Shown one piece after another: positions 5,086 to 59,263 of a stretch of 64,000 nt of DNA. The notes beneath the pieces are model-generated. The model saw nothing but the letters and a program-made list of their open reading frames with translations, made no database searches and was not told where the DNA came from. The DNA lies in NCBI GenBank assembly GCA_029721435.1, contig CM056577.1, positions 113,334,219-113,398,218 on the forward strand. Reading direction: 5' to 3'. Numbering within the stretch: position 1 is the stretch's first letter; each line of letters starts with the position of its first letter. Source of the stretch: Gymnothorax reevesii (taxonomy: Eukaryota > Chordata > Actinopteri > Anguilliformes > Muraenidae). The position numbers and the translations under genes are program-made.

Positions 5086-5183
5086 AAAGGTGGGATTACA
5101 TCGTACATTTTGCATTGGTTGACAATAATGTAATAAAGGTGGGATTACATCGTACATTTTGCATTGGTTGACAATAATGTAAT
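5086..5183. repeat. Perfect 49-bp tandem duplication (two copies)
   Basis: A 49-base block starting AAAGGTGGGATTACATCG at 5086 is repeated with no visible difference from 5135. Identity suggests a recent slip or unequal exchange. Confidence 0.9.
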
Positions 5184-5367
5184 AATCTCTGACACCAAAT
5201 AGCCTAGTTTCCTTCGTTTCACTCAGCTAATTAGCAAGTAGCTTTTCAGAGTTACATACATTTCAAACAACTTCTAGCGCATTTTAGGGCTAAAATAAGA
5301 AAGCAGCAACGATTTGTCAAAAAATCAGTTATCTAAATACACGATAGTTAAAACACAACTATTTTTG

Positions 5368-24161: not shown

Positions 24162-27100
24162 CTGTGGGAAGTTGTACCGAGTTAAAAACACCATATACAA
24201 TATAATATTCCAAATTTCGGGCATATGTCATAGATGGACTCTTATACACTAATTTGATGAGAATGGCGATGACATGAATAATTCAATAATGCACGGTCCA
24301 ATAATTGCATGACTTTTGTGACTCAAAAATGTATTATCAAAGCTTTTAATATTTGATAAATAGCCTTTGAAAAGATCATGACTAACCTCGAAATTTCGCA
24401 AAGAATCACCTGCACAAAATGCGCAAGATTTATTGGTAAATACTAGTCACTTCTTGAAAAATGGATGTCTTTCTCATTGGTTTTAAGACGGAATATACTG
24501 GACATAAAAGTACACAAACTTACCTGACTGTACACTTCCCAGTCTCCTCTGTAACGCCTCAAGCCTGGTTATGTAGTCACTCAGAGCCCTGTCAGGGTCG
24601 TAATTCTGGAGGTGAGAGCAGGTCAGACTGCCTGTTTCTGCATGGGCTGCGTTAAACCTACATATGCAGAAATGACAGAAAAGCGCAATGAGCCAGGTAA
24701 GTGATGAGGGAAGTCCTGTAAAAGGGATTGACCGACCTGATCCTGAGGGAGCAGAGGTGAAGTATGTTATGGTACAATTTTATTGCTAACATACCTTTTT
24801 CAAAGAACATCCCCATCTCTCTACAAGCTGTAAAGATTTCTCTTCTTCAGTCATATTTTTCTAAATAATACTTGAGACAAATACATCTTCAAACTATTGC
24901 AGCTGATACAGGAAAGCCAGATTCCTAAATAGTGTTTTTTTTTTTTGACCAATCGAACAGGTGTTTCAGGAGTTTTCACAACAATTTAGACAAAATCCCT
25001 ATCATCAACTGTGCAGATCTCTTTATAGGACCATGACAGTCAAAAATCAAAACTCCCCAAAATAAACTGGACAAACTCAAAAATGACTAAAATAAGGTTT
25101 GGAATATGATTTACGCAATAGTTGTCCATGCCAGATTATATATTCCTGCAAACTAGTCAAAGCTGTTTGTCAGATACGTACAATTTTTAATTCAACCAAC
25201 ATGTGATAACCAGGGCAGGGAACAGCTTTTCCGCAGTCCTTGCGCTGTCCTCTGGGTACGCATGCGCACTCCAATGTATAAATGACCAGTTTGTTGCAGT
25301 CATCACATTGTAGCTATTAAATTCAAATAATAACATCAATTAATGCATTGTTTTACTGTTTAAAATTCAGTGTAAGGTGAATTGACTCTTCAATTCAGTC
25401 CTTTTTCATTTTATGTCCATTTCCCTTGACATGCCAACTTTTAATTAAACAAGTATTTGACACTAACGTGTCTTTGTCCCCCGCCAGAAAATGTGAAATC
25501 GTGTCAAAATGAACAATTTCTCGGTGTGACCTTGAGAATGGCGCGAAGGTCACCGAAATGGACTGGCGCCGGGGTATCACCCTAATACATGTTGACATCA
25601 GATTAGAAGTAAATCCGTCGATTTGTTCTTGAGATATGTCGCTGACAAGGCTATCAGTGTGAAAATCCACAATCTCTCGGTGTGACCTTGAGAATGGCGC
25701 AAAGGTCACCGAAATCGACTGGCGCCGGGGTATCACCCCAATATATGTTAACATGGAATTTGAAGTAAATCCGTCGATTCGTTCTTTAGATACCTCGCTG
25801 ACAAGGCTATCTGTGTGAAAATGCACAATCTCTCAGTGTGACCTTGAGAATGGCGTGAAGGTGACCGAAATCGACTGCCGCTGGGGCATCACCGTAATAT
25901 ATGTTGACATGGAATTTGAAGTAAATCCGTCGATTTGTTCTTGAGATATCTCGCTGACAAGGCTATCAGTGTGAAAATGCACAATCTCTCAGTGTGACCT
26001 TGAGAATGGCGCGAAGGTCACGGAAATCGTCTGGCGCCGGGGTATCAGACTAATACATGTTGACATCAAATTTGAAGGAAATCCGTCAATTCGTTCTTGA
26101 GATATCTCGCTGACGAGGATTCAGGACGTACAGACGGACGAACGTACGTACGGACGGACGGACGGTCGTAAATACTATGTCCCGCCGCTTCGCGCATTCC
26201 GCGCGGCGGGGGACAATTATGTACTTCCAAACCCTGTCAGTTGAAAGGAATGGTCTGATTTAGCATGAACATGCCAAAAGTGTGAAAATCGACATTCTCT
26301 CGGTGTGACCTTGAGAATGGTGCGAAGGTCACCAAAATCGACTGGCGCTGGGGCATCACCATCATACATGTTGACACCGAATTTGAAATAAATCCGATGC
26401 TTACTTCTTGAGATATCGCGCAGACAAGCATTTCAGTGTCAGAATCTATCATACCTCGGTGTGACCTTGAAAATGTCGCGAAGGTCACCAAATTCGACTG
26501 GCGCCGGGACATTACCCGAATACATGTTGACACCAAATTTGAAAAAAATCCGATGCTTACTTCTTGAGATATCGGGCAGACAAGCATTTCAGTGTCAGAA
26601 TCTATCATACCTCGGTGTGACCTTGAAAATGTCGCGAAGGTCACCAAATTCGACTGGCGCCGGGATATTACCCTAATACATGTTGACACCAAATTTGAAA
26701 AAAATCCGATGCTTACTTCTTGAGATATCACGCAGACAAGCATTTCAGTGTCAGAATATATCATACCTCGGTGTGACCTTGAAAATGTCGCGAAGGTCAC
26801 CAAATTCGACTGGCGCCGGGACATTACCCTAATACATGTTGACACCAAATTTGAAAAAAATCCGATGCTTACTTCTTGAGTTATCGCGCAGACAAGCATT
26901 TCAGTGTCAGAATATATCATACCTCGGTGTGACCTTGAAAATGTTGCGAAGGTCACCAAATTCGACTGGCGCCGGGACATTACCCTAATACATGTTGACA
27001 CCAAATTTGAAAAAAATCCGATGCTTACTTCTTGAGATATCGCGCAGACAAGGTTTCGGGACGTACGGACGGACGTACGGACGGAGCTGAATACTATGTC

Positions 27101-30100: not shown

Positions 30101-33100
30101 TTCCCATCCTTACCCATTGTCTGGACCTGGCCATTCCTGTTGACAGCCGAGGAGCTGGACCCAGCCTCTGTGGTCTTATACCATCGTTTCACAAGGTACC
30201 TCATTCTGTGAAGGAGTAAGAAATAACTCACATACATGAAAACAGTAAATAGAGCTGATGCCCCACATCTGGTGCTCGTGAATAAAAATGCTTCCAGTAC
30301 ACTTGTTCGCATAAGTCTGTAGAAGCTACGAGGCTAGCTGAAACCCAAATTTCCGACAGTGGCTTGTTTTAGAAACAGTCATTTTCCCAAATTTTATTAT
30401 TTGGAATGTTGCATGTTTTTTCTTATCTAATCTTGGTAATGTTTTCAGCTTAGTTCAGAGACTGCAGAAAGTCTGATCTTCCTATGTTAAGCTTTCTAGA
30501 TTTGGTCTAAAATGAAACTAAGGAATTTGGTGCAAATTTCACTGGATGGTGGGGAAATGGCTTTATTCGAGTAAACAATTATACTGTTGGACTGGAACAA
30601 AGAAACACTTGTATGGGAACATTAAGAATGCACACATAAAGGAAGGGTGAGCATCAGGGATATGCTTCAGCTGACAATACACTTGAGGTTACAGGGAAGG
30701 CTACTTTTTAATTTGGTCAGGCAGTGACAGCTAACAACACTGCCCTTCCAAAACAAAGCAGTTGCATGCTATAATATTTCGTGGGGCCACCTTTAGCTTT
30801 GACCACAGCGCACATTTGTCGTGGTCTTGTTTTGACAATCTTATACAATGTTACAACATTTATTTCTAAGTGGATTTGCGTTCATTTTTGGCCAAGATAT
30901 TCTGTAGACTAAGAGAGTCAAACCACTCCGTTCAACCCTCTCTGGCGAATCCAAAAGAATCTTTGGAGAAGGGTGTCACACCTCCCTGTGTTAATCTGTA
31001 TTCTACTCACAGTTCGAAGGCGTGCACCTCAGGCTAACTGGAGACTCTTAAAACCCAAAACATATGAGTGTCCCCTCACCTTCAGATCTGTCTCCCCATG
31101 CTCTATAACGCCTCTTTATTTCGATGCTGTCCATGTCCACATCTACCCATGTCTATGTCTTTGGCCCTGTCCATGTCAACATCTACCCATGTCTATGTCT
31201 TTGGCCCTGTCCATGTCCACATCTACCCATGTCTGTCTTTGGCCCTGTCCATGTCCACATCTACCCATGTCTATGTCTTTGGCCCTGTCCATGTCCACAT
31301 CTACCCATGTCTATGTCTTTGGCCCTGTCCATGTCCACATCTACCCATGTCTATGTCTTTGGCCCTGTCCATGTCCACATCTACCCATGTCTATGTCTTT
31401 GGCCCTGTCCATGTCCACATCGACCCATGTCTGTCTTTGGCCCTGTCCATGTCCACATCTACCCATGTCTGTCTTTGGCCCTGTCCATGTCCACATCTAC
31501 CCATGTCTGTCTTTGGCCCTGTCCATGTCCACATCTACCCATGTCTGTCTTTGGCCCTGTCCATGTCCACATCTACCCATGTCTGTCTTTGGCCCTGTCC
31601 ATGCCTTTTCATCCTTAAGTCTATGTCCCGCTTATATCTGTAAGTCTTGCCCGGTTAATATTTATTTATATCCAAGTGGTCTGGTTGCTCAGTCCAAGTC
31701 CTGTTTATGTTGGCCCCCTCTGATTGCAATATTAGCCTGTACTGCTCCCATCCTTTTTGTTTGTTTGTTTTGTTATACCCACAGAGAGGCGTCACCTTGC
31801 TTTGTTTAAAATACAAATGAATTTTAAAAAATAAATAAATAAATAAATAAATAAAATAAAGCTGATCTCCAAAGAGGGGCAGTGATGGCAGATTGAGTGA
31901 CTTCGCTGGGTGACTAAGTGCCCTACAATGTACAAGCGAACTGTGAAGCGATTATCCCTGCTTCTCACCCATTGGATATTGCGATAGGCCCCCACCACCC
32001 ACCCCTGACCAGGAGTGAGTTAGATAATGGATGGATGGATGTATGGAGCAGTGGCACACGAGAGTGAGCGTATTAACCTCTGATTTCTGCCCGGCTTGTA
32101 CCATTGGTGTGTTCAGACGGTGGGCAGACTACCTCAGAGGGCCAGTTTACCTGGAGAGCGCAATGAAGACTCGCGCAGCAGACCTGAAGCGCGTGAAGCC
32201 CCTCGGTCGCCGACTTGCTGTGTCAAGACTTTGGTAAGATCGGCCACCCATCCTAGAAATGAGCAATAGGGTCGCCGCCTCGCAGTCCTGGAAGCTCCCT
32301 AGTAACAGCAGCAGGTATTTCTTCTGGTAAATCAGAGCCTTTCGAAAGCTCTCTGACCGCAGGTATTTCACATAGATTCTCTGGAAAAAGTAATAAGCAG
32401 AATAGCATCCATTTAGAGACGCACATCAACGTTCCTGACACCTAAATACACCAATGAATCAAGCATGAGACCATCAACTAGAATTTAAAATGAACCAGAT
32501 CAGCATTCGAGAATGATAAATTAACCAAGATGGCATGTATTAATATATTGCGATTCTGCATCTTTAATGTAGTGTCATTACAAAATTCATGAAAAACTTA
32601 TTCCTTCTATCCTTGCCTGGTTTCAAAACATTTTTTGACATCTCTGAGCTGCAAATTTCCTGTTCATTATACATTATTTACCAACCGCTATCAAGTATTT
32701 GTTTGGTCCGCTTTAAACAGACCAGAGTTCGTTTCCTTGGATGGTCCACTTCGTTTGGGCAGGTGTGAAAGCTCATCCAAACTCGGGTGCGGACCAAACA
32801 AGCAAACTCTGGTCTACCTGAAAACATGGGTCTCGGTTCGCTTGTAGCGGGAAATGAAAACAGATCCAATGAACCAAAGATGGGAAGAGAACCAAAGAGA
32901 GGTCCGGGCCAATCAATTTCTTCTTCCTCCTGTTTTTATTCCTCTTAGTAAGTGCTTGTTTAGGGCAATACTGCCCCAAACGAGCAGCTGTTGTAACTGC
33001 ATGACGTTGTCCAGGCGGTTTGGTCTGCTTTCAAAAGTGCAGGGTGAAAGTGAACCAAACCAAATGAAGGTGTGAAATTTTCCCACCCAATCGAACCAAG

Positions 33101-36100: not shown

Positions 36101-39100
36101 TCTTCTCTTCTGTTAAACGGCTGACAAAGCCCGTGAGCTCAGCATTCTGCCTCAGGAGTCGCTCAGTGAGTGAATTTGAGGAGCCACTGGCAGGCAGGGC
36201 TGTGCTCTGTGGAAACACACAGGCACAGGAGAGAAAAACTCATTCGCTTACATTTGGGATCAGTAAATTACCAATGTCCATAGTATCACAGGAGAGAGTA
36301 GTCCCTGGCCCAAATCATACAAAATCCCGGCAGCAAGTATGAAAGGAATTCAGCGTGATAAATGCAAAACTGTGAGAGAAGAATTCAAGAATACGCACAG
36401 ACAGTCCTTACATGTTATTTCAAGGCTGTGATTTCAATGACAATGATTTATTTTTCAAACGGTTACTCTCAGTGCCAAATAAGCTCAAGAAAATTAATGA
36501 AGACAATGAAAGACAGCCACACCCATTTTCAGCTTGAGAAAACTTAACTGCCATAACAACGGTAAAACTATGTGTATGATTTTATGAAGCCTAGTCTGCA
36601 AAAAAAGGGTGGGTACTTTTCTGCTGTCCTAGACAGCTACACTCCAGTCCTGTCAGTCACTATGCTGAAGGACTTGATAGTCACAATAATGAAAGCTTAA
36701 AACCCAATAAAAATACCTATAAAAATTCACTCATACCAGTTAAGATTTATTCGATGTGAGTGCAGTGTGAAAGGCTAATGCTCACAGCCCTGTTTGATGT
36801 GAGCTGCACTTACCTGAAAGGCTGGAGTAAGTGCTGGTGCCTGCTGGAGCTGGGATATCACACTCTGAACACTATTCTGCAGCCACGCGAGACCTTCGCT
36901 ATCCAGCTCCTCAGCGCTCGCCCTGTGAACACACACAGGGGCACAGTGTGTGATTGCAGTCTTTCCTCAGCTCATGCTCTGACAGTCTGAAATTCCCACC
37001 CAGACGCTGCCTGCGCCCCTACTTACAATGACAAAGCCCACCCTGCTACAAAAACAATTAAATACTCGGCTCTGACTGGTTATAGTGAATATAATTGCAT
37101 ATATTTTGTTTAAATAACCTGATATTTTGAATATTAATTTACCAATATTTTGATAGTTACCATTTTTAGAACATAAACCTCCTCATGAAGGACTGACCGT
37201 ACGACAGTACATTCAACTCATCTCAAACATGAAAATGAAAAATCAAGACTTTTTTTGACCTCAGTTGTTTAAAAGCTCAATCCTTTTCACCATGTCCTTT
37301 TGTTAACAACCTGCGATTTTTACAGTGACAATCACAGCAGCAGTACTGCGTAAAAGTACTCTCGTGGCAGTCGTTATGGAGGCAATGAGACAGAAAAAGA
37401 GGGGATTACCTTCCTTTAGAACTACTGGTCATGGTTTTGATTTTCGTAGCAATGTGATGCAGTTGTTCGATGGCTGTGTCCGTGAGTTTGGGGTCTACAG
37501 TGCCCAAAGATGCTACATTAAATTCACGTCGAGAGATGGAGCTGGGGTCTGTCTCCAACGTTTCCTGAAATGCGCCGTCTTCAGACAATCTGCTGAACTC
37601 ACCCTCAGTTTTCAGCAGGCTCTGAGGTGAGGAAACACAGACCACTGAATTTAAAAATACTACTACAGACTAGGGATGATAACAATTAATCGATGATCAA
37701 CAAATCGATCCTTAAGACTTTGGTCGATCACGTGAGGTTTAATCAATCTATCAAATTACAGATCTGAAATAGAAACAGCAACAGCCTCCTATAACATTCC
37801 AGCTGCTGTCAGAGGACTGTTTCAATGAGCCGCCAACAGAGGGCGTGATGACAGCAGATAAATACTGGTGGAAAATACACAATATATTGCTATGAAAAGA
37901 AAGCTTTGCTTGAGTGGAAAAAAACTTGTGAAAAAAAAGTTGGTGTAGTGTTTTATCAGAAGAGTTTTCATGTGGTTTTTTTTTTTTGATTCATTGACGG
38001 ATGGCTAAGTAATTTTACCAATGATCGATTAAGGGAGGTGCTTGCAATTTGCATCCCTACTTCAGACAGTACATCAAAATACTTTTGTATCAGTGAACTA
38101 TTCCTAAAGACCAGGCATACTCAAATCTGGATCTGGCCTGGGTTTTCTTTAATCCCATGAAAGTAAATTAACTGTAAGTGCCTCTGATTGGCTGGACTGC
38201 CTTTAAACCTGACTCCCAGCTGAAGAAAGAGTGGAAAGGCAGCAGCTCTCTGACTGTGATTTGAAGGCCAGGGCTATAGCAATAATCACAGAACAGAAAT
38301 TGCCAGTGTCTTTAATACAGTTGTAGTGCGATCGAAAGGGAGCAGGCTGAAAGACGAATCTCGACTCACCATCTGCGCACTGGGTTGTAGCGTTTCACCA
38401 AGACCTTGAACTTGCGACACTTGGTCCTGCAGCTGGTCTCTCTCCAGCTGCAGTTTGAGCGCCTGCTGCGTCTTCCGGTCCACCTGCTGCTGCAGCTCCT
38501 GCACCTGGGCTCGCAGCCTCTGCTCCCCCTCCTGCAGCTCCTGCAGCGCCCTCAGGCCCTGCTGCCCAGCCTGCCGCTCCTCGTCGCACTCCAGCCTTAC
38601 CCGTATCACCTCCAGCTTCAGTCCCTCCACCTCCCCCAAAAGCTGCACCACCTGTGTCTGCTTGTCCTCTAGTTGCGAATGTAAGGACTCCAGGACGCCG
38701 GCGTCCATCTGAACGCACTCGTCCTCAGCGCTGGCCTGGACTGGGTGCTCCTGACTCCCATGCCGCTTTCGCTGGCTGTGAAGCTCCCGCTCCCTCTCCA
38801 GGGCTCTCTCCAGCTCCAGGGCCCGGGCCTGCGCAGACTCCAGCTGCACCTGCAGTTCTGAAATGCGGCCCTGTTCGCGGGACGACTGAGACTGGTGCTG
38901 GGCCAGGCCGTGGTCCACTTGTTGCTTGAGCTGAGTCGACGTCCTCTTCTCCTTCTCTACAGCTTCACTCAGCTGGGCCACCTTCTTCTGCTCCTCCAGT
39001 AATAACAGTCTCATATCCTGGACACATCGAGACAGTATTTGACAACAGACCAAACTGATGTGGACAACAGTTCATCATTCAAACACTTAGCAAAATAAAA

Positions 39101-51100: not shown

Positions 51101-54100
51101 AACTGTGCAGCTGGAATGTGCTCCAGACGAGGCGATGCAGCCTGTGAAGATGCTCAATTAGATTTCAGAGAAAATGCCATTTTTTTTTTTTTTACATTTG
51201 TTTAACATTAAAGTATTTTTTACTCCTGGAATCTATACGACATGCCACATCATCTTTTTTCACTTCTTTGATTCAGCAAATATTTAAATCCGTTCCCGTT
51301 TTAAAATCTCCAATTAGGATCTCCTATATGTGTTAATGGTAACCACGTGGTAATCTTCAGTAGTTTTTGAGATGTAGTGCAAATTAAACAATTCAGATCA
51401 ATCATCTTGACCCCTCAACCTTTCAGTCCAACTGATCTTTGAAACTATGCACTTTTCACTATACTAATGGACAGGATTATATTTTAAAAATTGACAAATA
51501 AAACCGCGGGTATTGGTTTGATGTAGATCGGACCATTTCACAGAGTTACGGAGTTATGCCCAAAATTGATTTGGACCTTTTTAGTGACCTTCACCATGAC
51601 CAAATTCAATCTAAAATTTCACAGGATCTATTTTCGGTCATTGCCCAACTTTTGGCCAAATTTGGCATAAATTGAGGCATTTTCTCATAAATAGATAAAT
51701 AAATTAACTAATGAATTAATCAAGGAAATTACAATAGCCTCGAGAAGCAGGGGTTAAAAAAAAGCAGTTGGCCAACTGACCTCTGAATCGTAGAGATCCT
51801 TGATGACAGCCCTGAGGGCCCTGCACTCCTCTTGCAGGGCCTCTTTCTCTTTTTTAAATCCCTCGCTCTCACAAATATGCCTGGCTTCCATATCCATGAT
51901 TTCAGCTGCGTGCAAGTCCTGCATCTGTCCAATCTTCTCAGTATATTCACTGATCACTTCTGCCATTTCTTCCGACTCTAAATTAGAGTGATGCTGAACT
52001 GAAATAGTCTGCACTTCTGCATCAGCATAGGTAGTACTGGGGGTCTGGGGGATCCTGCCTATGCCAGCAGTGCAGTCCATCTGGGAATCACGCCCCTCTT
52101 TGGTAGACGTCTCCCTCATTTTCGCTGAGCGGCTTCGTTTACCAGTCGAATATTTTCCAGCTTCCTTTTTCAAGTCCTCCTCAGATTTCCTCAGAGCCTC
52201 CTTCATCTGTGCAAGCTCCACTTGGAGTTTGGCAATGGATTGCTCTTTGATGTCCAGCTCTGCATGCAACTTGTCATTCTGCTCCCTGTAGCTGTTGAGC
52301 TCCTGTGCAGTCTCGCGTCCGTCTTGCACCTGTCCCATCCCCTCTGTATTTTCACTGTTCACTTCCCCCATTTCTTCTGACTCTACACTGGAGCCTTGCT
52401 GCACAAGACTAGTCTGCACTCCTGCATCAGTGCAAGGAGTACTGGTGGTCTGGGCAGCCCTGTCTGTACTAGCAGTGCAGTCCATTTGGGAAGTATTTCT
52501 CCCTTTGGTTGAGGACCGTCTTGTCTTAGCTGAACGGTCTTGTTTGCCCGCCGAATGTCTCCCAGTTTCATTTTTTAGCTCCTTCTCGGATTTACCGAGT
52601 GCTTCATTTTTCTGTGCAAGCTCGTCTCGTAGTTTGGCTATGGAAACATCTCTGACATGAAGCTCCTCCTGCAGCTTGTCATTTTGTTCCCTGTATCTTT
52701 TGACTTCCTCATCGTGTCTTTCTTGCATGTGCCCGATCCTCTCCGTATACTCGCTGATTACTTCTGCCGTTTCTTTTGACTCAACATTAGAGTCAGGCTG
52801 GACCAGACTTGTCTGGACCCCCGCATTAGTGCACGTGGTTTCGCGGGTCTGGGTTGTCCTGTCTGTACCAGCAGTCAAGTCCATCTGGGAGGTATTTCTG
52901 CCTGTGGCCGACGTCTCTCTGGTCTCCTCGGGGCGGTCCTTTGTAGCAGCTGAATATTTTCCTGCTTCCCTTTTAAGCTCTTTACCTGACTTCTTCAGAG
53001 CCCTCCTCATCTGTTCAAGCTCCTCTTGTAGTTTGGCTATGGAAACATCTCTGACCTGCAGCTCCTCCTGTAGTTTGTCATTTCGCTCCCTGAAGCTGTT
53101 GAGCTCCTCCTCAGTTTTGCAGCCGTCTTGCGCCTCTCTGACCTTCTCTGTGTCCTCATGCTTCACCTGAGCCATTCCTTCTGACTCCGCGCTGGAGTCC
53201 TGCTGGACCACAGTAGTCTGCACTTCCTTATCAACACAGACAGTACCGTGCGTCTGCGTAGTCCTGTCGGTACCATCAGTCCAGTCCATCTGGGAAGCAT
53301 TTCTCTCATTGGTTGAAGTCTCCCTCCTCTTCTCTGAATGGCCTGGTTTACCAGCTGAATATTTTCCAGCCTCCTTTTTAAGCTCCTCCTCAGACTTTCT
53401 AACAGCCTCCTTTATCTGTCGGAGCTCCTCTTGCAGCTGGGCTATGCAAACATCTCTGACCTGAAGCTCCTCCTGCAGCTTGTCATTTTTCTCCCTGTAG
53501 CTGCTGAGCTCCTCTTTCGTGGCAGCAGCCTCCTCTCTGACCTCCTGCAGCAGTCTGGATGCAGCAGCAGGGTCTTTCTCAGTGACACTAGGTCCTCTCA
53601 CCGATGCCTACGTGACGGTGAAGACAGGATTCCCTCTTTATAATCTCACACATTCAAAGTTTGAAAATGAAAACAATAATATTTTCAATTTTTCTGAAAG
53701 GTTTAAAAAATACTGCTTCCTGTTTGTTATTAGAATGCTACGAAAGGTCCGATAAGCAAGTCAAAGCACTGAGACAAAATGCAATAGAAACCTAAGTTTG
53801 AAGTACAAACAAAATCACACATCCTGTAATACAAATTCAGAACAAAACTACAGTTTGTCCCCCAACTTAAAACTTGAATTAGACAGTGTCTATTTAATCA
53901 GGGGTGTGCCGGCAAACGATATGATATGGCAATGGTGGGAATATGACAGAATAGTTTTAAAAGTTTTTTGCTTTTACTCAAAGTGAAAGACAACTTTTGC
54001 ACAAAACTGTGAAATAAAGAATAAACCGCATGATATCCAGATATTATAACTTTGACTTCTGCGATTATCCTGTACAACGCTACTGGAGGTCACCATCTTT

Positions 54101-57100
54101 CCCTCCCTTGAAAAGGTTTAGCCCATGAGTGGTCAAGGAATGCTATAGCACTCATGTGACAGTGACAGCAAAAGATCATAGTGTGACCAAAGTCTGGATG
54201 CGCTAAACTCATTTTGTAATAAATTCCCACTTGTTTTGAGCGGTTTTGTCTGCTTAAATTGGTTAAAGCACGAGCTAGTGCTTCCTCTCCCTTTCTGTGT
54301 CAGTTGTCTAGCAATGGGAGATTAATTCATGATGCATTTTTTGCTCTCATTGTTAATTTGCTTTGGCCAAAGTATGTGTGAGTAAAACGCGAGTCATCTT
54401 TTGTATTCATTACATTGAGTGGATATTTAGACTAGCACAAGTATTGCAGTAATGAGCAGCATGTCGGTCCTTTCATAGTTTTGCAGATTCGTTAAGGCAC
54501 TTCTCGCATTTTTAGCGAACAAATACATGTCTTAGCATATGTAGATAGCCAAGCTGGCAACATTGTTACATTACTATGCAAGTGCAATAGGTCACATAAC
54601 AAACAATACAGACACTGATAATGCTGAAAATTTCCATTATAATTTGGAAACGCCATTTTATTTTGTGGGCTGTCTATCAAAATGAGAAATGAATTTCATT
54701 TTCCAACACACAAAACTAAAGATATAAGCAAAATATTTTACCAGAAACATATACTATATTAGTAAAAATAAAGAAATATGATTGAACAGCATCTAGCAAT
54801 AGGTAGTTTTCATTACACAAAATTTTTGAATAAATCTGACTCGTCTCTTGCTTACCTGATGCAGCTCTCCTTTAAGCTGTAAGATCGTTGCGTCTCTCCC
54901 CTGGACAAAGACAACGTACATTCAGCATCAGTCAATCATCAATCGATATTTTTTCAATTATATTTGATCAGAGTCTACAGAAGTATGAAATAAAAATTTG
55001 TTATTGGCGTGATACTGCAATATCAAAATAGCACAATATTTTCTCAAGTAATATCCTTAACTGATATGCAAACATACGCGACCAGTGAAATGCTTGGACA
55101 GAGTTTACTCATGTTATAACACACCATGTTAGATAAATTTAAGAGGTTTCACCTCTGTAAATAACCAAATGGCACATGGCAACAGGTCAGAGCTAAAAAA
55201 AAAAAAAAAAATGCTTCTCACAATACTGTCAGAAAAGTGGAACTTTGAGAAAGACATTGGTCCTGATAAATCTTGAGTTAATCTTACGCAGAATTTCCAA
55301 ATGAGAACATTCTGCAAAAAAGCACTACAAAACACTGCAGTCTCAGTGTGATGGTGTGAGGACGCTTTGCTGCTTCAGGGCCATAACTGACAGAAACATG
55401 AAATCTCCTCTCTGCCAAAAAATCCTCAAAAAAATGTCTGGTCATCAGCCTGACATCAGTGCAACTGGGTCACTCAGCAAGACAAAGTTTCAAAGCAAAT
55501 GAACAATTCCACCATGGAATAGCTCAAAAAATCAAAGTTAATCATTTGGAGCAGCTTAGTCGCCATCACTTGAATCCAACTGAGATGCTGCGGCAAGACG
55601 TTTAATTGGCAGTTCATACTTAAAAACCCTCCCTTGTGGCCAAATTTAAGTTATCCAGCAAAGAAGAGAGGGGACGTGGAGGACTGATCTCCAGTAATCA
55701 GAGGTGTCTGTTAGCAATTCCTGCTGCTAAAGGAAGCACAACCAGTCCTGCAGTTTACTTTTTCTCATGGGAGACACTGGTTTCGGATATCGGTTTTCTA
55801 CCAATAAATGAAAATGAAAAACTTTAACTTTTTTGTTTCCTCATGTCCAGCTCATCTTTTATTAGATTTTGTTAGAAGATCTGAAACCACCCAAAGCGAT
55901 AAATAAGCAAAAATAGAGGAAATGAGGAGGCGGACTATACTTTATTCACAGCATCATAATTGGGTAATTCACAGCAGTATGAAGTCCAGTTTAGAATGTC
56001 CTGCCATAACTTTCTGAAGGCAGTGAAATCAGTATGAGTACTTCACCAATTAGGGTTACATCCTGGCTGCTTAATTGTGCTAACTGGAACAGGGGACGAG
56101 AAAAAAAAAAATCCAGCTTTTACTTTCAAACCTGAATTCACCATCTTCCAGCAAAATCTCCTTGTCCCTGTCAAGTAATCTTGAACAGGCATCTTAGAAG
56201 TACCTGAAGATCCTCCTGCAGCTTGTTATTTCTTTCCCTGTAGCTGCTGAGCTCCTCTCTAGTGGCATCAACTTCCTGTCTGAGCTCCTGCAGCAGGTCT
56301 GCTGAAGCAGCAGGGTCGTCTTCATTAGCTGTAACCGATGCCTGCGTAAAGAGAGTAAAACAATTCAGCAATCACAATAAGTTAATTCACAATTTATAAC
56401 ACCAGTCGTTTACTCTTTCTCAAGGACTCCATTGAGCTGCACTCAAATCCCTTTAACACACGACATACACTGTAATACATTGTGATAAAATGCAGTTTGA
56501 ACCAAATTTTTAGCATTTCAGAACCTACTACAGGCATTCCTTCAAGCAAGTAGACAAGTGGCCATATTGCCCCTGACCCACAAAAGAGTGCCTTACACCC
56601 CTAATAGCTTTGTAAACAGTCAAGTCTTCCAGTACATTCATTGCATAACTTAGCTGGGAGCCTGCAACGAATACCTTAATAAGGATCTGAGCAGAAAAAA
56701 ATTTAAAGAAAAAAACAGGCAATTAGAAACTTGTTACAAAATCTAACAGAGAAATGAAAGACTTTCAAAGAGTAGCTTATGATGGACTAGTGATAAGAGT
56801 TGATACACATACTTTAATAGGCAGCAGTGACGTCTGGCTCCTTGGTTTTGTAGTCATCTGGTTGAGGAGATCAATCAGCACCGCCAGCCTCTTCTCGTAC
56901 TCCACCACCTCCACCTCAGAGCTGGACAGCAGTTGCTTCTGCAGCTCCTGGTCCTTTTGCATGTTGCACAAACCTTCCTCCAGCTCTCTTAGTTTTTCTG
57001 TTAAGATGACCACTTTTGTGACAGGCACTTTTTCACTGACTTTGTCCTCTACCTGGGAGTACAAAGGAGAGTCCGTGCTTACAGAGGAGATGTCAGCCAT

Positions 57101-59263
57101 CTCTTCTGTGCTCTCCTCCCACAGCTCCTGCCGTTTTAACGTCTGGCTACGGGGCTCTTTGGTTGGTACATCTGAATGCTCCTGCATGGCTCCCGGTCCG
57201 ACCTGGTTGAACTGTACGGCAGCCACCATCTCCCGGAGTTTATCCTCCAATTCAGAGACTTTATGGTGAAGAGCAGCCGCCTCTGCCTGGGTCTCCTTCA
57301 CTTGCAGTCTACATCGCTTCAGCTCCGAATCCTTCTCCTCCACAGACGTCTCCAGCTCTTCAATCTTTGTGCTCAGGTTGGCCATTCTATAGCCAGCACT
57401 TTCCTCCAAGGCCTGAACTTGAGCCTGCATGACGACGCACTCCGCAGTCTTCTCCTGAAAGGCTTTTTCCAACTGGTTCCACTTGTTCTTTTGCCCTTCA
57501 TCCACCTCCCTGGATGCCACTTCCTGTAAGGACTTGTATTTCTCCAATAAGGAACTGTGACTGGCCTGTAATGTGGTCAATTCCTCAGTCAGCTGTTTCA
57601 TCTTATGCTTGAGTTCATCAAAATCCTCACTGGTGAGGTGGACTTCCTCCCTCGCCTGGGTGTCTAAGTGCTGTGTGTCATGAAGGTGCTCATCTGATGC
57701 TTTGTGTGCAATCATTAAAAGCTCCTGTTGGAGCTTTTCAATGACATCGTTCAACTGATCAATTTCCTCTTCACTGTTCTTTTTCAAGCGCTCCTGTTCG
57801 CCCTTCATGCACTCGACCTGGGATTCAAACTCCCTCAATAACTCATTTTTATCCTCGAGTGCCTGAAACGCATGCCGAGATCAACAAAAAGATACTTAAG
57901 ATGCGTGTCATAGTAACACTGCAATAGCAGACAGACATTGATAAATGTTTTCTGAAGTTCTGCAGCTAATATTTTATTTTATCCAATTAATGTATTACCC
58001 AGAATTATTTTTTGAGGGAGCCCACCAATTCAAACAATAAATCACACTGGCTACTCTTTATCCCCAAACAAGAACCATAACAAAAACTAGGCTTATGTCG
58101 TCGGAGGCGACGGCTTGGGGTATATCCCCGAACGCCCCCAATCCTCCAATTCCCCAATCCTTAAATAGACTTTCATTTGAACTTAATTTCAAGTCAATCA
58201 GACAAATGGTTCTGAAGATATGGCCAAAATGGTAATTTTCCATCACAAAGCGCCACCTGGGGGCAAAATACTGAACCATACAGGTATGATGTCATCATGT
58301 GACTGGTTGTCATGACCTTGCAGTTGCACATAGTTTTATGTCAATTGGGCAAATGGTTCCAAAGATATGGCAAAAACGGTGAATTTTATGTGACAAAGCT
58401 CCACCTTGTGTCAAAATTTTGAACCAAACAGGTATAATGGACACATCCTCAGGTCATGACCTTTCATTTGCACTTGATTTGAGGTCAATCGGACAAATAT
58501 TTCCAGAGATATGATAAAAACAGTGATTTTTCCATTTTTGGCCCCTGGTGGCCAATCTAGAAATTGTAAATTGTCCAAAATCGAATCAGATCTTCCTCTT
58601 TATGATATTAACTTATATGCAAAACATGAAATTTCTAATTGAAATATTACTGAAGTTATCACGTTAACACGTAGGGCGGCGCAGCGGCGGCGGTCGGACC
58701 AAAAACCATAATTATGGTACCATTCCTTGCACCAAAACAAATGCACCCCAAGATGTTTCAGTAGTTTAAGATATTTAGAGAAGTCTATCAAAAGCAAAGA
58801 TTACTAGCCTCACAATTTATAACAACTAATAAGAACTGAATCACTGACACCTACTGTAGATAACTTACTGCTGACAACAACACTTGGTTTGTAAAGGTGA
58901 GGCATTTGCGAAAGTCTGAGTAGATAGCAGAATCACAAACAGCACTTGGTGCAAACAATATTCGGCTGAAGGCCAGTGTAAACATTAACCCATACGTAAA
59001 CCACTAGCCAAATATATTGACAAATATTTCCATGTGATTTGGCACCCTAAAACTTCTGGACAGATGAGCCAGGCCTGATTCGGGGCGCAGAGAAAGACAC
59101 GCAGAGCTACCTTGAGCAGTTCTCCCTTGTGCTGCAGGTCCTGCTGCTGAGAGCTCAGCTCCTTGTTCTGTATCTCCAGCTGCATCTGGAGCTGCTGCAC
59201 CTCCTCGCTCTTGTTCTCCAGCTCCTCTCTGAACTGCTCCAGCTGCTCCTCCAGGTTGCTGAT
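24118..59263 (-). CDS. akap9: A-kinase anchoring protein 9, C-terminal half (22 exons)
   Basis: AKAP9 (AKAP450/CG-NAP) is a giant scaffold at the centrosome and cis-Golgi that anchors PKA and other signalling enzymes and supports microtubule nucleation. Twenty-two minus-strand exons, all with AG acceptors and GT donors except one GC donor, join in phase to 2056 codons ending in TAA. Long stretches agree with my memory of human AKAP9: HRESE/DWRAELLQAVQQVF, ELAQTKLELESTLKAQHKHL, KKSRELQWAFEKEK, SLTERLLRQNAELTG, and the PACT domain block SESFRKALIYQKKYLLLLLG. Nearly all of it is heptad-rich coiled coil. Exon 51781-53607 carries a four-fold tandem expansion. The 5' half lies beyond 64000. The first exon here starts in phase 0, and about 4.7 kb of intron follows it to the window edge. 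Confidence 0.95.
24524..24627 (-). CDS. akap9: akap9 exon u (104 bases)
   Basis: It encodes (S)LTCSHLQNYDPDRALSDYI and then RLEALQRRLGSVQS, matching human 'ACSQLQNYDPDRALTDYITR'. Donor TCAG/GTAAGT. Phase 2 to 1. The acceptor is ambiguous: four AGs lie close together, and only the one at 24628-24629 keeps the frame with exon t. An acceptor at 24638 would add a conserved-looking Thr-Gly-Ser but would need a different upstream phase or a missed micro-exon. Confidence 0.82.
25470..26217. mobile_element. Unit-array element 1: four 156-bp units with inverted ends
   Basis: TTGTCCCCCGCC at 25470 is matched by GGCGGGGGACAA at the right end, giving inverted termini. Inside, the core GTGTGACCTTGAGAATGGCG starts near 25524, 25680, 25836 and 25992, an exact 156-bp period. 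The right end contains ACGGACGGACGGACGG and a GC-rich hairpin (CCCGCCGC with GCGGCGGG). No conserved protein; the minus-strand frame (143 codons) is a product of the period being divisible by three. Confidence 0.75.
26220..27153. mobile_element. Unit-array element 2: five 156-bp units
   Basis: Cores GTGTGACCTTGAAAATGTCG recur near 26303, 26459, 26615, 26771 and 26927, with perfect 156-bp spacing. The right end repeats ACGGACGGA and the terminal GGCGGGGGACAA twice. The left edge is unclear. Units within this element resemble one another more than those of element 1, so each array was homogenised separately. Confidence 0.75.
27154..28509. other. akap9 intron remainder, no feature recognised
   Basis: AT-rich. 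An A run at about 27881-27898 follows short frames without similarity. Confidence 0.4.
28510..28615 (-). CDS. akap9: akap9 exon t (106 bases)
   Basis: Acceptor TTGATATCAG, donor GCGAG/GTAATG. Phase 1 to 2. It encodes (A)IEERRGSPYLHPGNVDGYG and then SSRGLTGRDSA. The other two frames have stops, which fixes the phase. Weakly conserved serine/glycine-rich tail. Confidence 0.75.
28616..30113. other. akap9 intron, no feature recognised
   Basis: AT-rich intronic DNA. A 72-codon minus-strand frame at 29606-29824 has no recognised similarity and lacks a matching splice pattern. Confidence 0.45.
30114..30205 (-). CDS. akap9: akap9 exon s (92 bases), end of PACT domain
   Basis: Acceptor TCCTTCACAG, donor ATGG/GTAAGG. 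Phase 2 to 1. It encodes (R)MRYLVKRWYKTTEAGSSSS, matching 'MKFLVRRWHRVTG'. Confidence 0.92.
30765..30965 (-). pseudogene. Tc1-like transposase fragment
   Basis: GTGGGGCCACCTTTAGCTTT, then TTTTTGGCCAAGATATTCTG and TCCAAAAGAATCTTTGG match, in reverse orientation, the N-terminal part of a common teleost Tc1-like transposase gene. Only about 200 bases remain and no ends are visible. Confidence 0.55.
31127..31600. repeat. Minisatellite, 12 units of 38 or 40 bp
   Basis: GGCCCTGTCC starts at 31163, 31203, 31241, 31281, 31321, 31361, 31401, 31439, 31477, 31515, 31553 and 31591, so spacings are 40,38,40,40,40,40,38,38,38,38,38. The two forms differ by an AT dinucleotide (GTCTATGTC versus GTCTGTC). 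All three plus-strand frames stay open through it, but the array sits in an akap9 intron on the opposite strand and is not considered coding. Confidence 0.92.
31827..31858. repeat. (AAAT)n microsatellite
   Basis: About seven AAAT/TAAA units. Confidence 0.9.
32151..32380 (-). CDS. akap9: akap9 exon r (230 bases), PACT domain
   Basis: Acceptor CTTTTTCCAG, donor TCCAG/GTAAAC. Phase 0 to 2. It encodes RIYVKYLRSESFRKALIYQK, then KYLLLLLGSFQDCE and RPRGFTRFRSAARVFIALS. This is the core of the PACT (pericentrin-AKAP450 centrosomal targeting) domain, which in the family drives centrosome localisation and binds calmodulin. Confidence 0.97.
32690..33120. mobile_element. Candidate non-autonomous DNA element
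   Basis: Words such as TTTGGTCCGCTTT, GGACCAAAC, GAACCAAAG and GGTGTGAA(A/)TT occur in both orientations through the block, as in subterminal repeats of teleost MITEs. Exact ends and target duplication were not resolved. Confidence 0.35.
33309..33443. repeat. Foldback element made of four short palindromes
   Basis: Outer arms AGATTGTGAAACCAG and the complement at 33429-33443 (TGATTTCACAATCCT) pair. Inside are palindromes at 33321-33339 (GTCATTTCACAAAATGAC), 33351-33366 (CCATTTCATAAAATGG), 33381-33401 and 33411-33431, spaced about 30 bases apart. Confidence 0.75.
33580..33780 (-). CDS. akap9: akap9 exon q (67 codons)
   Basis: Acceptor TTACCTGCAG, donor AAG/GTCTGT. Phase 0 to 0. It encodes GWNRERMQLEKHLRQAEAEV and RLRGKIRADSLWDF, matching human 'VWNREKLTLQKSLKRAEAEV'. 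Confidence 0.93.
33781..35039. other. akap9 intron, no feature recognised
   Basis: No bounded repeat or exon-like frame was identified. Confidence 0.4.
35040..35172. mobile_element. Foldback MITE hairpin
   Basis: Two arms of about 62 bases, for example ACATTCAAAGTCGATGCG and its complement CGCATCGACTTTGAATGT, meet around 35105-35112. The outer ends CTTTCACACCGGAC and GTCCAGTGTGAAAG also pair. An almost complete hairpin with a tiny loop. Confidence 0.85.
35173..36023. other. akap9 intron, no feature recognised
   Basis: Contains A/T homopolymer runs near 35761-35774. No gene. Confidence 0.4.
36024..36206 (-). CDS. akap9: akap9 exon p (61 codons)
   Basis: Acceptor TTTCCACAG, donor AAT/GTAAGT. 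Phase 0 to 0. It encodes SGSSNSLTERLLRQNAELTG and then LTEEKNDLRNSLVRLEKELR, almost identical to the family consensus. Confidence 0.95.
36814..36922 (-). CDS. akap9: akap9 exon o (109 bases)
   Basis: Acceptor TGTTCACAG, donor CAG/GTAAGT. Phase 2 to 0. It encodes (R)ASAEELDSEGLAWLQNSVQ and then QLQQAPALTPAFQ. Corresponds to human 'ADDEDFIWVQENIDEIILQLQ'. Confidence 0.82.
37410..37621 (-). CDS. akap9: akap9 exon n (212 bases)
   Basis: Acceptor CCTCACCTCAG, donor GGAAG/GTAATC. Phase 0 to 2. It encodes SLLKTEGEFSRLSEDGAFQE and DTAIEQLHHIATKIKTM, less conserved but in the right place and phase. Confidence 0.82.
37671..38059. mobile_element. hAT-type MITE, 389 bp, with target duplication
   Basis: Ends TAGGGATG and CATCCCTA are inverted, with AATTAATCGAT and ATCGATTAA just inside. 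The flanks CTACAGAC (37663-37670) and CTTCAGAC (38060-38067) form an 8-bp duplication with one mismatch. No coding capacity. It lies between akap9 exons m and n. Confidence 0.82.
38370..39017 (-). CDS. akap9: akap9 exon m (216 codons)
   Basis: Acceptor GTGTCCAG, donor ATG/GTGAGT. Phase 0 to 0. A long GC-rich Glu/Gln/Leu coil: DMRLLLLEEQKKVAQLSEAV, then EQGRISELQVQLESAQA, then ERALERERELHSQ. Matches human 'EEQGRNLELQVLLESEKV' and 'LDRERELHAQ'. Its base composition (much higher GC than neighbours) generates several overlapping spurious frames. Confidence 0.93.
39165..39700. repeat. Three diverged tandem units of about 170 bp with CAGACAGACAGA tracts
   Basis: Each unit has an ACAGACAGAC/GGACGGACG tract, then AAAAGGCACATCTACACA-like, then AAATATTGAATGGTTTAGGA-like sequence (from about 39190, 39360 and 39545). 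The GGACGGACGA tract recalls the ends of the 156-bp unit elements at 25-27 kb. Confidence 0.65.
39894..39939 (-). other. Cryptic or alternative akap9 exon candidate
   Basis: Between akap9 exons l and m, a 46-base segment is framed by AAACGCAG and CGGCAG/GTTAAG. One frame reads YGGPMERLSPRSSRQ. Its length is not a multiple of three, and inclusion would shift exon m and meet a stop within about 20 codons, so if spliced in it would act as a poison exon. It may equally be chance. Confidence 0.25.
39940..41339. other. akap9 intron, no feature recognised
   Basis: AT-rich with a short GC-richer stretch at 41010-41070. No support for a gene. Confidence 0.35.
41340..41500. mobile_element. hAT-like terminal fragment
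   Basis: The right edge, read on the complement, begins CAGGGCCGCTTTAATTCATG and continues GGGCTTACCTGGGCTGAAGC, a terminus seen in teleost hAT elements. The opposite end was not found. Confidence 0.4.
41570..41720 (-). CDS. akap9: akap9 exon l (151 bases)
   Basis: Acceptor TGATTTACAG, donor GAG/GTAATA. Phase 2 to 0. It encodes (R)NEVTEKAAEVDCLNNKL and DEQKKSRELQWAFEKEK, a clear AKAP9 signature. Confidence 0.92.
41860..42573. mobile_element. hAT-like element, 714 bp, non-autonomous
   Basis: The left end CAGTGGTTCTCAAACTCGGC and the right end (complement CAGTGGTCCTCGTTCCTGGC) match, with GGCGCCCCAC paired further in. CAGTGGTTCTCAA is a classic hAT (Charlie-like) terminus. No target duplication was recognised and no transposase is present. 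Confidence 0.7.
42574..43274. other. akap9 intron, no feature recognised
   Basis: No bounded repeat or reading frame that I can support. Confidence 0.35.
43275..43626. mobile_element. piggyBac-like MITE flanked by TTAA
   Basis: TTAA at 43275 and 43623 flank perfect inverted ends: AGGTGCACTATGCAA on the left and TTGCATAGTGCACCT on the right. The TTAA target and MITE length of about 345 bases fit a piggyBac-type non-autonomous element. Confidence 0.82.
43804..44331 (+). mobile_element. Internally deleted Tc1/mariner element
   Basis: The left end TACAGTACTGCGCAAAGGTC and right end CTTTTGCACAGTCCTGTA are inverted and flanked by TA. The interior keeps the last part of a transposase (CCCTGATCTCAACTACAAGG, 'GCTGTCTGGGAATAC') and little else. 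It ends 63 bases from the GC donor of exon k. Confidence 0.8.
44395..44575 (-). CDS. akap9: akap9 exon k (181 bases) with a GC splice donor
   Basis: Acceptor TTCCCCTCAG. Phase 1 to 2. It encodes GVAEQQPVLEKHAGVSLNPE and then ELAQTKLELESTLKAQHKHL. The exon ends CTGAG followed by GCAAGG at 44394, a strong GC-AG donor. Joining at this point restores the conserved 'R.EV' junction in the next exon, while the nearest GT would not. Confidence 0.9.
44669..44789 (-). CDS. akap9: akap9 exon j (121 bases)
   Basis: Acceptor CGCTGACAG, donor GCCG/GTACAG. Phase 0 to 1. It encodes EAQQREAMEVLQKADRDSLL and TEITQLKAQLQQLQLNPRIA, matching human 'AMECLQKADRRSLLSEI'. Confidence 0.88.
44790..45681. other. akap9 intron, no feature recognised
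   Basis: No bounded repeat or exon-like frame apart from the short G run. Confidence 0.35.
44945..44968. repeat. Short G/A-rich run
   Basis: A run of nine G after GAAGTAAA. Minor low-complexity tract. Confidence 0.6.
45682..46172. mobile_element. Long foldback element, arms about 150 bp
   Basis: The left arm begins ACTCAGCGCCATTAAAAATG, then CACAGGTGAGGTATG; the right arm ends with the complement CATACCTCACCTGTG and TTTTTAATGGCGCTGAGT. Further pairs include TATTGCTTTTCCAGT with ACTGGAAAAGCAATA and CACCATGTG with CACATGGTG. The spacer is about 190 bases. Confidence 0.85.
46173..47694. other. akap9 intron, no feature recognised
   Basis: Frames at 46265-46624 are open but without recognised similarity. 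Confidence 0.35.
47695..48063. repeat. Two tandem units of about 170 bp
   Basis: The pattern 'GGAAATAGAATATGCTCCAG ... GGACTACCATCTACCAT ... CCAAATTTTG ... TTCATAACTTTTTGA' recurs as 'GGAATACAATATATGTTCCA ... GGACTACCACCTATCAT ... CCAAATTTTG ... TTCATAACTTCTTGA'. It ends with ACAGACAAACGAAAAGACAA, the same kind of tail as other unit-array repeats here. Confidence 0.65.
48231..48413 (-). CDS. akap9: akap9 exon i (61 codons)
   Basis: Acceptor ATGTCCGCAG, donor CAG/GTACTG. Phase 0 to 0. It encodes KDWRAELLQAVQQVFAAERS and TSDAVICLNQLEQKLSEQ, an AKAP9/pericentrin-family block. Confidence 0.93.
48709..49112. mobile_element. Foldback MITE, about 400 bp
   Basis: The left arm (GCCACACTTTATTTGAAGTA, GCTCATAAAGGCTTTATAC, CATACATAAGCAAAT, CTTTGTAAAGG, CACATCCTTCTTCA) is matched in order by complements in the right arm, ending AAAGTGTGACC. 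Each arm is about 150 bases. Confidence 0.85.
49113..50195. other. akap9 intron, no feature recognised
   Basis: AT-rich, no supported feature. Confidence 0.4.
50196..50399 (-). CDS. akap9: akap9 exon h (68 codons)
   Basis: Acceptor TTATATAG, donor GAA/GTATTG. Phase 0 to 0. It encodes SLLREVHQEGMQVLSLSE and then DKLKGLISTMQIHRESE, matching human 'LLRAVHNEGMQVLSLTE' and 'LKDLITKMQLQREAE'. Confidence 0.93.
50643..50767 (-). CDS. akap9: akap9 exon g (125 bases)
   Basis: Acceptor CCCCACAG, donor AAG/GTGTGA. Phase 1 to 0. It encodes (D)SGSDWSQQTSGDPVVLHQ and ends in LLPDRIK. SDSGSDW followed by a spacer and ...KIK is the AKAP9 order. Confidence 0.85.
51081..51141 (-). CDS. akap9: akap9 exon f (61 bases)
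   Basis: Acceptor TCTTCACAG, donor AGTG/GTAAGG. Phase 0 to 1. It encodes AASPRLEHIPAAQFKDGSMS plus the first base of Asp. The split Asp is completed by the next exon to give the conserved DSGSDW, which confirms the junction. Confidence 0.85.
51142..51780. other. akap9 intron with faint unit-type repeat
   Basis: A T run at about 51180-51192 and a diffuse block near 51480-51700 with phrases like TTCACAGAGTTACGGAGTTAT and GTGACCTTCACCATGACC, similar in style to the other intronic unit arrays. No gene. Confidence 0.35.
51781..53607 (-). CDS. akap9: akap9 exon e (609 codons) with four tandem modules
   Basis: Acceptor CACGTAG, donor GAG/GTCAGT. Phase 0 to 0. After a 32-codon lead there are four head-to-tail modules starting at 53511, 53106, 52707 and 52302. 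The first three are 135, 133 and 135 codons long, and the last runs into the conserved tail (LHAAEIMDMEARHI then EECRALRAVIKDLYDSE). Each module has a coil (ELNSYREQNDKLQEEL then SIAKLQEELAQM), a basic Ser/Thr-rich linker (GRNTSQMD.TAGTDR), a TQT/VQT motif pair and an acidic SEYTEKIGQMQ helix. In human AKAP9 I recall only one such module, ending 'LHAAEILDMESRH'. Confidence 0.93.
51904..52302 (-). repeat. akap9 module repeat 4 (about 133 codons)
   Basis: Begins ELNSYREQNDKLHAELDIKE. QT motifs are the weak IPQT (52042-52053) and EVQTI (VQT at 52006-52014). Leads into the conserved LHAAEIMDMEARHI tail, so this copy is most likely the ancestral end of the array. Confidence 0.9.
52303..52707 (-). 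repeat. akap9 module repeat 3 (135 codons)
   Basis: Begins EVKRYREQNDKLQEELHVRD. QT motifs are the weaker AAQT (52447-52458) and GVQTS (VQT at 52411-52419). Confidence 0.9.
52708..53106 (-). repeat. akap9 module repeat 2 (133 codons)
   Basis: Begins ELNSFRERNDKLQEELQVRD. QT motifs are TTQT (52846-52857) and GVQTS (VQT at 52810-52818). Ends VISEYTERIGHMQERHDE. Confidence 0.9.
53107..53511 (-). repeat. akap9 module repeat 1 (135 codons)
   Basis: Begins ELSSYREKNDKLQEELQVRD. QT motifs are TTQT (53251-53262) and EVQTT (VQT at 53215-53223). This copy has the most divergent acidic end (AQVKHEDTEKVREAQ). Confidence 0.9.
53608..54855. other. akap9 intron, no feature recognised
   Basis: No supported feature. 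Confidence 0.4.
54856..54900 (-). CDS. akap9: akap9 exon d (15 codons)
   Basis: A small exon framed by CTTTGTCCAG and CAG/GTAAGC. Phase 0 to 0. It encodes GRDATILQLKGELHQ, which aligns with the VRDVSIAKLQEEL part of the repeat module downstream. With exon c it forms a partial fifth module. Confidence 0.8.
55333..55860 (+). pseudogene. Decayed Tc1-like transposase, C-terminal part
   Basis: With frameshifts, the plus strand reads as a Tc1-type catalytic domain: 'SGHQPDISATGSLSK', a relic of 'PDLNPIEMLW.DL' (HHLNPTEMLRQDV, near 55570-55600), then KPSLVAKFKLSSKEERGRGG, 'SNQRCLLAIPAAKGSTT'. No ends are visible. Confidence 0.65.
56204..56341 (-). CDS. akap9: akap9 exon c (46 codons), duplicate of the start of exon e
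   Basis: Acceptor TTTACGCAG, donor CAG/GTACTT. Phase 0 to 0. It encodes ASVTANEDDPAASADLLQEL and then ELSSYRERNNKLQEDLQ. The first residues, the overall order and the acceptor position mirror the first 49 codons of exon e (ASVRGPSVTEKDPAAASRLL then ELSSYREKNDKLQEELQ), so the two exons are paralogous copies. Confidence 0.88.
56813..57862 (-). CDS. akap9: akap9 exon b (350 codons)
   Basis: Acceptor GCGTTTCAG at 57863 and donor AAA/GTATGT at 56812. Phase 0 to 0. It encodes ALEDKNELLREFESQVECM, then EEEIDQLNDVIEKLQQEL, then a long charged coil ending in SQTSLLPIK. The 'EEIEQLNEVIEKLQQEL' block is an AKAP9 signature. Relative to human, it appears to follow exon a directly, without the segment I recall between them. 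Confidence 0.93.
58055..58715. repeat. Unit array, three units of about 150 bp, with GC-rich end
   Basis: Units share 'CATTTGAACTTAATTTCAAG / CAGTTGCACATAGTTTTATG / CATTTGCACTTGATTTGAGG' followed by 'GTCAATCAGACAAATGGTTC ... GATATGGCCAAAA ... CCACCTG'. The right end has GGGCGGCGCAGCGGCGGCGG and GTCGGACC, and the left GTCGGAGGCGACGG. Confidence 0.65.
58716..59110. other. akap9 intron between exons a and b, no extra exon seen
   Basis: Inspected for the AKAP9 segment expected between exons a and b. No heptad-rich frame with splice sites was found. Confidence 0.45.
59111..59263 (-). CDS. akap9: akap9 exon a (51 codons)
   Basis: Starts after TGCCTCAG and ends at AAG/GTAGCT. Phase 0 to 0. It encodes coiled coil beginning ISNLEEQLEQFREELENK and QMQLEIQNKE, closely matching the AKAP9 segment 'EEVQQLHMQLEIQKKE'. 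The reading frame extends a little upstream but the acceptor marks the true start. Confidence 0.88.

Follow-up and report, generated by a model that had tools for sequence, protein, structure and literature searches.

The locus described here raises the question of what a coiled-coil scaffold protein gains when one of its modules is repeated four times, head to tail, within a single exon. We addressed it in a window of 64,000 nucleotides from Gymnothorax reevesii (assembly GCA_029721435.1, contig CM056577.1), the whole stretch of DNA that was analyzed. Coordinates are given relative to this window.

Gene identity and architecture of the repeat exon

The repeat exon is predicted at 51781..53607 on the minus strand. 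It is an open frame of 609 codons that begins and ends in phase 0 and is preceded by AG and followed by GT; the acceptor at 53607 scores below the cut-off used, and both limits of the exon are predicted. We identify the gene as very probably AKAP9, a scaffold of the centrosome and Golgi, because ten collinear stretches on the minus strand, including the PACT region, match a reconstructed C-terminus of human AKAP9 that served as bait. The first of these matches is the DLHAAEI-DME (LHAAEI-MDME) block at 51918. The match to the C-terminal PACT region lies at 32150..32401 on the minus strand (E 2e-25, with 66% of 85 residues identical to the human bait), and the last match, past the PACT region, lies at 24632-24501 on the same strand. 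In the assembly of 2.17 Gb and 421 contigs, the repeat exon occupies a single place, and its sole further match is the small upstream exon A described below (87% over 116 bp). Another AKAP9 exon likewise gives a single match in this assembly.

Four direct copies of a module make up most of the exon, all on the minus strand: module 1 at 53107..53511 (135 codons), module 2 at 52708..53106 (133 codons), module 3 at 52303..52707 (135 codons), and module 4 at 51898..52302. Module 4 continues into the LHAAEI-MDME block, which matches the human bait, and we fixed the end of the module at 135 codons (51904 in the original prediction). The copies are spaced by 405, 399, and 405 bp, that is, 135, 133, and 135 codons, and their starts at 53511, 53106, 52707, and 52302 are exactly those of the original prediction. 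That prediction had placed the expansion inside one AKAP9 exon, in agreement with the open frame and the ten collinear AKAP9 matches. It had also given the order of elements as coil, basic Ser/Thr linker, QT motifs, and acidic helix, and this arrangement is present in all four modules. The coil anchor [FY]RE[KRQ]ND[KR]L recurs at residues 37, 172, 305, and 440 of the exon. There are no introns between the modules, which share one open frame throughout.

A self-comparison of 51781-53607, which the original prediction had called for, revealed a periodicity of about 400 bp. Identity was 63% at a shift of 804 bp, 55% at 1209 bp, 50% at 405 bp, and 39% at 399 bp, compared with 39.7% for the best shift among 100 codon shuffles; the 399-bp shift on its own is not above this shuffle maximum.

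Age of the modules and selection on them

Across the six module pairs, DNA identity is 70-73%, protein identity is 56-60%, dS is 0.68-0.84, and dN/dS is 0.29-0.39. From dS values of this size between copies, the module duplications are judged to be old, and by the same sequence comparisons the copies have been held coding under purifying selection. By part of the module, dN/dS is 0.28 in the coil, 0.40 in the linker, 0.41 in the QT strip, and 0.26 in the acidic helix; thus, the QT strip evolves no slower than the linker around it. No two modules share an identical run longer than 28 bp, and the best 100-bp window reaches 85%. The suggestion that copy number may vary between individuals did not hold up well, and ready variation by unequal crossing-over is unlikely, since the copies differ by 27-30% and share identical runs of at most 28 bp.

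A split half-copy upstream of the repeat exon

A fifth copy of the coil half of the module, split by an intron and missed in the original prediction, lies upstream as two predicted exons. Exon A (56204..56341, minus strand, phase 0) encodes the module head and the first part of the coil in 46 codons (ASVTANED...NNKLQEDLQ), and its donor scores below the cut-off used. Exon B (54856..54900, minus strand, phase 0) encodes the next 15 coil codons, GRDATILQLKGELHQ. The same head and coil segments sit fused, without introns, in the repeat exon. A long coiled-coil exon of the same gene, with approximate limits 56831..57880 on the minus strand, precedes exon A.

The two small exons differ in their divergence from the repeat exon. 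Exon A is 85% identical to its 5' end over 114 nt, with a dS of 0.18, from 4.2 changes over 25.6 synonymous sites. Had these sites changed at 0.45, the lowest rate seen between modules, four or fewer changes in 25 would have a probability of 0.002. Exon B shows 49-58% identity to its four counterparts, and its synonymous sites are saturated. Alignments of intron stretches that adjoin exon A, exon B, and the repeat exon, or that lie between them, were no better than those of shuffled sequences, which reached the observed score in 46 of 300, 243 of 300, 40 of 100, 12 of 60, and 81 of 300 cases; an intronic origin was therefore rejected. These sequences likely reflect a recent exchange that involved exon A alone, via gene conversion or a spliced copy. 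Such an exchange would fit on top of an older duplication with intron loss or gain.

Predicted structure of the module

The AlphaFold2 model of the whole exon, made from one sequence, has low overall confidence (mean pLDDT 61.7). Its main helices span residues 13-83, 166-224, 278-351, 430-485, and 546-608, the last one breaking at residue 581, and a short extra helix is seen at 153-160. Low-confidence stretches lie at 85-163, 222-276, 351-429, and 487-544. The Q residues of all eight QT sites fall inside these stretches, at pLDDT values below 50 and with helices on either side. The model made from the alignment of the four modules has a helix at residues 2-55, with blocks of pLDDT 86-97 up to residue 50, a stretch below 50 at 55-105, and a second helix at 107-181. 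Heptad scoring agrees with the AlphaFold2 helices: 127 windows of the exon score at least 5, compared with a mean of 20.9 and a maximum of 64 in shuffled sequences. The module is thus predicted to consist of a dimeric coiled coil and a disordered linker. Mean pairwise identity among the modules is 0.66 in the coil and 0.50-0.60 in the other parts.

Searches by homology gave the following results. No homolog of the exon protein was found at E 0.001 among the 7992 scored candidates sharing most words, and the linker region 215-290 returned eight candidates, none at E 1. Among solved structures, the linker had no match up to E 10, and the one match to the exon (E 0.078) was taken as chance. Pfam listed 17 families for the exon at E values up to 1, and one, NET2A_C, which we take to be a plant family, passes its cut-off; this identity was rejected as coiled-coil similarity. 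A reading of the acidic helix as an RII-binding (PKA-anchoring) helix seemed, by eye, not to fit.

QT pairs as candidate LC8 sites

The dynein light chain LC8 binds the consensus [D/S]-K-X-[T/V/I]-Q-[T/V]-[D/E], and also the class [K/R]-X-T-Q-T; such motifs occur in disordered regions that in many cases have coiled coils on their flanks (PMC3078936). Each module of the repeat exon has two QT sites, a feature missed in the original prediction, and the Q-to-Q spacing is 12 residues in all four (residues 118/130, 253/265, 386/398, and 521/533). At the first site, R at position -3 and QT are invariant across the modules, and at the second site, VQT is invariant.

We compared the sites with nine position rules, two of which both concern position -3, that we drew from PMC6607443. 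Module 1 conforms to all nine rules at both sites, TDRTTQTH (53248..53271) and VDKEVQTT (53212..53235). In module 2, TDRTTQTR (52843..52866) also satisfies all nine, and TNAGVQTS (52807..52830), with a small residue at -3, satisfies seven. The first site of module 3, TDRAAQTT (52444..52467), is weaker, with the anchor AQT and eight of the nine rules, and the second, TDAGVQTS (52408..52431), has a small residue at -3 and satisfies seven. In module 4, IGRIPQTP (52039..52062), with a proline within the core and the anchor PQT, satisfies seven, and the weak site ADAEVQTI (52003..52026) satisfies six. All of these sites are on the minus strand. The QT pair of module 4 has probably decayed, judging from these residues, and its first site in particular. 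Overall, every rule is satisfied at three of the eight sites, and the other five break one or more; the anchor is TQT or VQT in six. None of the eight fits the entire seven-residue consensus, which requires D or E at +2.

Measured LC8 binders of similar shape include SDKGVQTP of ZFPM1 and WTRSTQTT of MUC4 (PMC6607443), as well as TKGVQTME of LCA5, a coiled-coil centrosomal protein (PMC9481538). In the former source, 53 phage-selected peptides were synthesized, of which 16 bound LC8 and 31 did not. A TQT anchor alone is therefore insufficient.

The pattern [TV]QT occurs six times in 609 residues, compared with 0.16 expected from a six-frame control (32 in 121,426) and a mean of 0.53 in shuffles, none of 2000 reaching six. 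The pattern [DS][KR]x[TVI]Q[TV] occurs three times (0.01 expected; reached by none of 2000 shuffles), and [KR]xTQT occurs twice (0.01 expected; reached by 3 of 2000). Since copies of a motif in duplicated modules are not independent, the question of chance concerns a single module. Taken by itself, module 1 has two matches to the strict pattern, a number reached in 96 of 20,000 shuffles, and modules 2, 3, and 4 have one, none, and none.

A scoring matrix that we built from 18 LC8 binders and 21 non-binders parts the two only moderately (leave-one-out AUC 0.71). The two TQT sites score 9.1 and 9.7, close to the median of the non-binders (9.5), and stretches free of a QT anchor in other exons reach as much as 9.0. 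Neither module 3 nor module 4 has its first site among the 14 best octamers of the matrix. Eight octamers of the exon score at least 8, compared with a mean of 1.22 and a maximum of 6 in 1000 shuffles; three score at least 10 and two at least 12, which do not exceed the shuffle maxima of 4 and 3.

Our preferred reading, for which we consider the chances evenly balanced, is that duplication within the exon raised AKAP9 from one to up to four double LC8 (DYNLL) sites and would thus have made it a multivalent LC8 client. The original prediction had supposed that the number of partner sites could change; the eight LC8-like QT sites give this idea a candidate form, with LC8 docking itself being a prediction.

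Two further motifs were noted. An SQMD block is invariant in all four modules (53511-51898), and its Q precedes the Q of the first QT site by exactly 12 residues; the block is without both outer LC8 anchor residues and satisfies six to seven of the nine rules. An LC8 lookalike, EDKQTQVV, which counts against the LC8 reading, is encoded in a coiled-coil exon of the same gene at 38286-39071. It is probably inaccessible in a helix and would serve as a natural negative control for the LC8 motif reading.

Proposed mechanism and known systems

We propose that the coils hold two AKAP9 chains in parallel. At each linker, an LC8 dimer would take the same motif from both chains, bound as beta-strands in its two grooves, and would staple the linkers in register, so that the succession of coil, linker, and coil is stiffened into a long rod. 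Alternatively, LC8 may take motifs from different AKAP9 dimers and thereby cross-link neighboring dimers. By analogy with ASCIZ and LCA5, the product would be a ladder of coils with a double LC8 clamp after each, strongest toward the N-terminus. The sites of modules 1 and 2 would be dominant, those of module 3 would depend on avidity, and those of module 4 would be mostly decayed. As a tentative extension, AKAP9 of this lineage may be an LC8-stapled ladder in which stiffness, reach, and cross-linking follow the dose of LC8 and the number of modules.

ASCIZ, Nup159, Bassoon, Chica, Pac11, and GKAP carry several LC8 motifs per chain in disordered regions, with coils predicted (PMC10046861). According to the same paper, LC8 binds ASCIZ in register, and linker length sets the uniformity of the complex: linkers of 6 and 9 residues give uniform LC8 complexes, whereas those of 3, 30, and 41 residues give mixed ones. 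Two eight-residue motifs spaced 12 apart leave four residues between them; uniform or mixed LC8 complexes are therefore both possible in the modules. In contrast to multivalent clients of the ASCIZ type, the double predicted sites of the repeat exon are separated by long coils, in an array of four tandem units that arose by duplication within the exon.

LCA5 (lebercilin) resembles this exon in combining coils with a VQT motif in a disordered region, and its coils dimerize without LC8, which then enhances higher oligomers (PMC9481538). LCA5 has two LC8 motifs, compared with the eight candidate sites of the repeat exon. The same source proposes LC8 as an oligomerization engine for coiled-coil centrosomal proteins. 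What LC8 does at the centrosome, apart from its part in the dynein motor, has yet to be settled. If our reading is true, scaffolds with between one and four double LC8 sites would form a natural series, in which the oligomerization idea could be tested by counting modules across species. Our reading would also imply a direct link between AKAP9 and LC8; among the literature titles listed for AKAP9 (AKAP450) with LC8, DYNLL1, or dynein light chain, none named such an interaction. Among the literature titles listed for AKAP9 with repeats and fish, nothing was on point.

The nearest precedent found for the amplification of a module in a scaffold is Piccolo b of teleosts, in which the exon of a zinc-finger scaffold domain is multiplied within the gene to 8-16 copies in different species, a case that its author calls very rare among characterized zebrafish genes (PMC3484663). 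In Piccolo b, whole exons are multiplied; here, the modules lie inside one exon and encode a coil together with linear motifs. Whole-exon duplicates with introns between them were not seen in this locus, where only the half-copy of exons A and B is split. Compared with AKAP9 (AKAP450/CG-NAP) as represented by the human bait, the collinear C-terminal exons and the PACT region are common to both, and the fourfold module would be the difference.

Alternative explanations

The duplications may have added only length and flexibility, as alternating rods and hinges, with the QT motifs as passengers of a Thr-rich linker. We regard this as possible but rather unlikely. The coil is indeed the most conserved part (identity 0.66 versus 0.50-0.60 elsewhere), the QT strip has a dN/dS of 0.41, and module 4 retains its coil and its frame even though its motifs are degraded. 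The spacing of 12 residues in all four modules, one of which is two codons shorter at another point, speaks against this reading, as does the larger share of invariant columns at the anchor and -3 positions than in the rest of the linker (6 of 8 versus 16 of 59; Fisher p 0.013, a modest difference).

It is equally doubtful, in our estimation, that four copies in this exon are the ancestral and usual state of AKAP9 across a broad group and not specific to this lineage. The dS of 0.68-0.84, which marks the duplications as old, agrees with such an origin; the only point against it is the suggestion, in the original prediction, that human AKAP9 may have a single equivalent of the module.

Improbable, in our view, is that the linkers exist for a kinase or for some partner other than LC8, with the resemblance to LC8 sites being secondary. 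The invariant SQMD without the outer LC8 anchors may be selected by something else, and the basic RRET and RRSS in the linkers of modules 1 and 3 resemble, by eye, the consensus of PKA sites. These PKA-like sites, again by eye, are present in only two of the four modules, and the sole Pfam family past its cut-off is coiled-coil-like, with no other known domain indicated. The PKA-like stretches sit in a PKA-anchoring protein.

A false expansion of the modules during assembly, an error that the original prediction had named as a possible refutation, has nothing in its favor beyond the existence of the repeat and is practically negligible, given the 27-30% DNA difference between copies with low dN/dS and the single locus in the 2.17-Gb assembly, with exon A as the only other match.

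Other repeats in the window

Several other repeats are present in the window. A highly uniform tandem array at 31127-31603, with 12 copies of a 40-bp unit and 97% matches, is bounded by the match to the PACT region on one side and the last matched exon on the other; it is therefore probably intronic, and it is a likelier candidate for variable copy number than the AKAP9 modules. Between the last two matched exons, an array at 25501-27053 comprises ten copies of a 156-bp unit with 80% matches. Upstream of the long coiled-coil exon, 58170-58535 holds 2.5 copies of a 144-bp unit, and at 5086-5185 there is an exact duplication of 49 bp.
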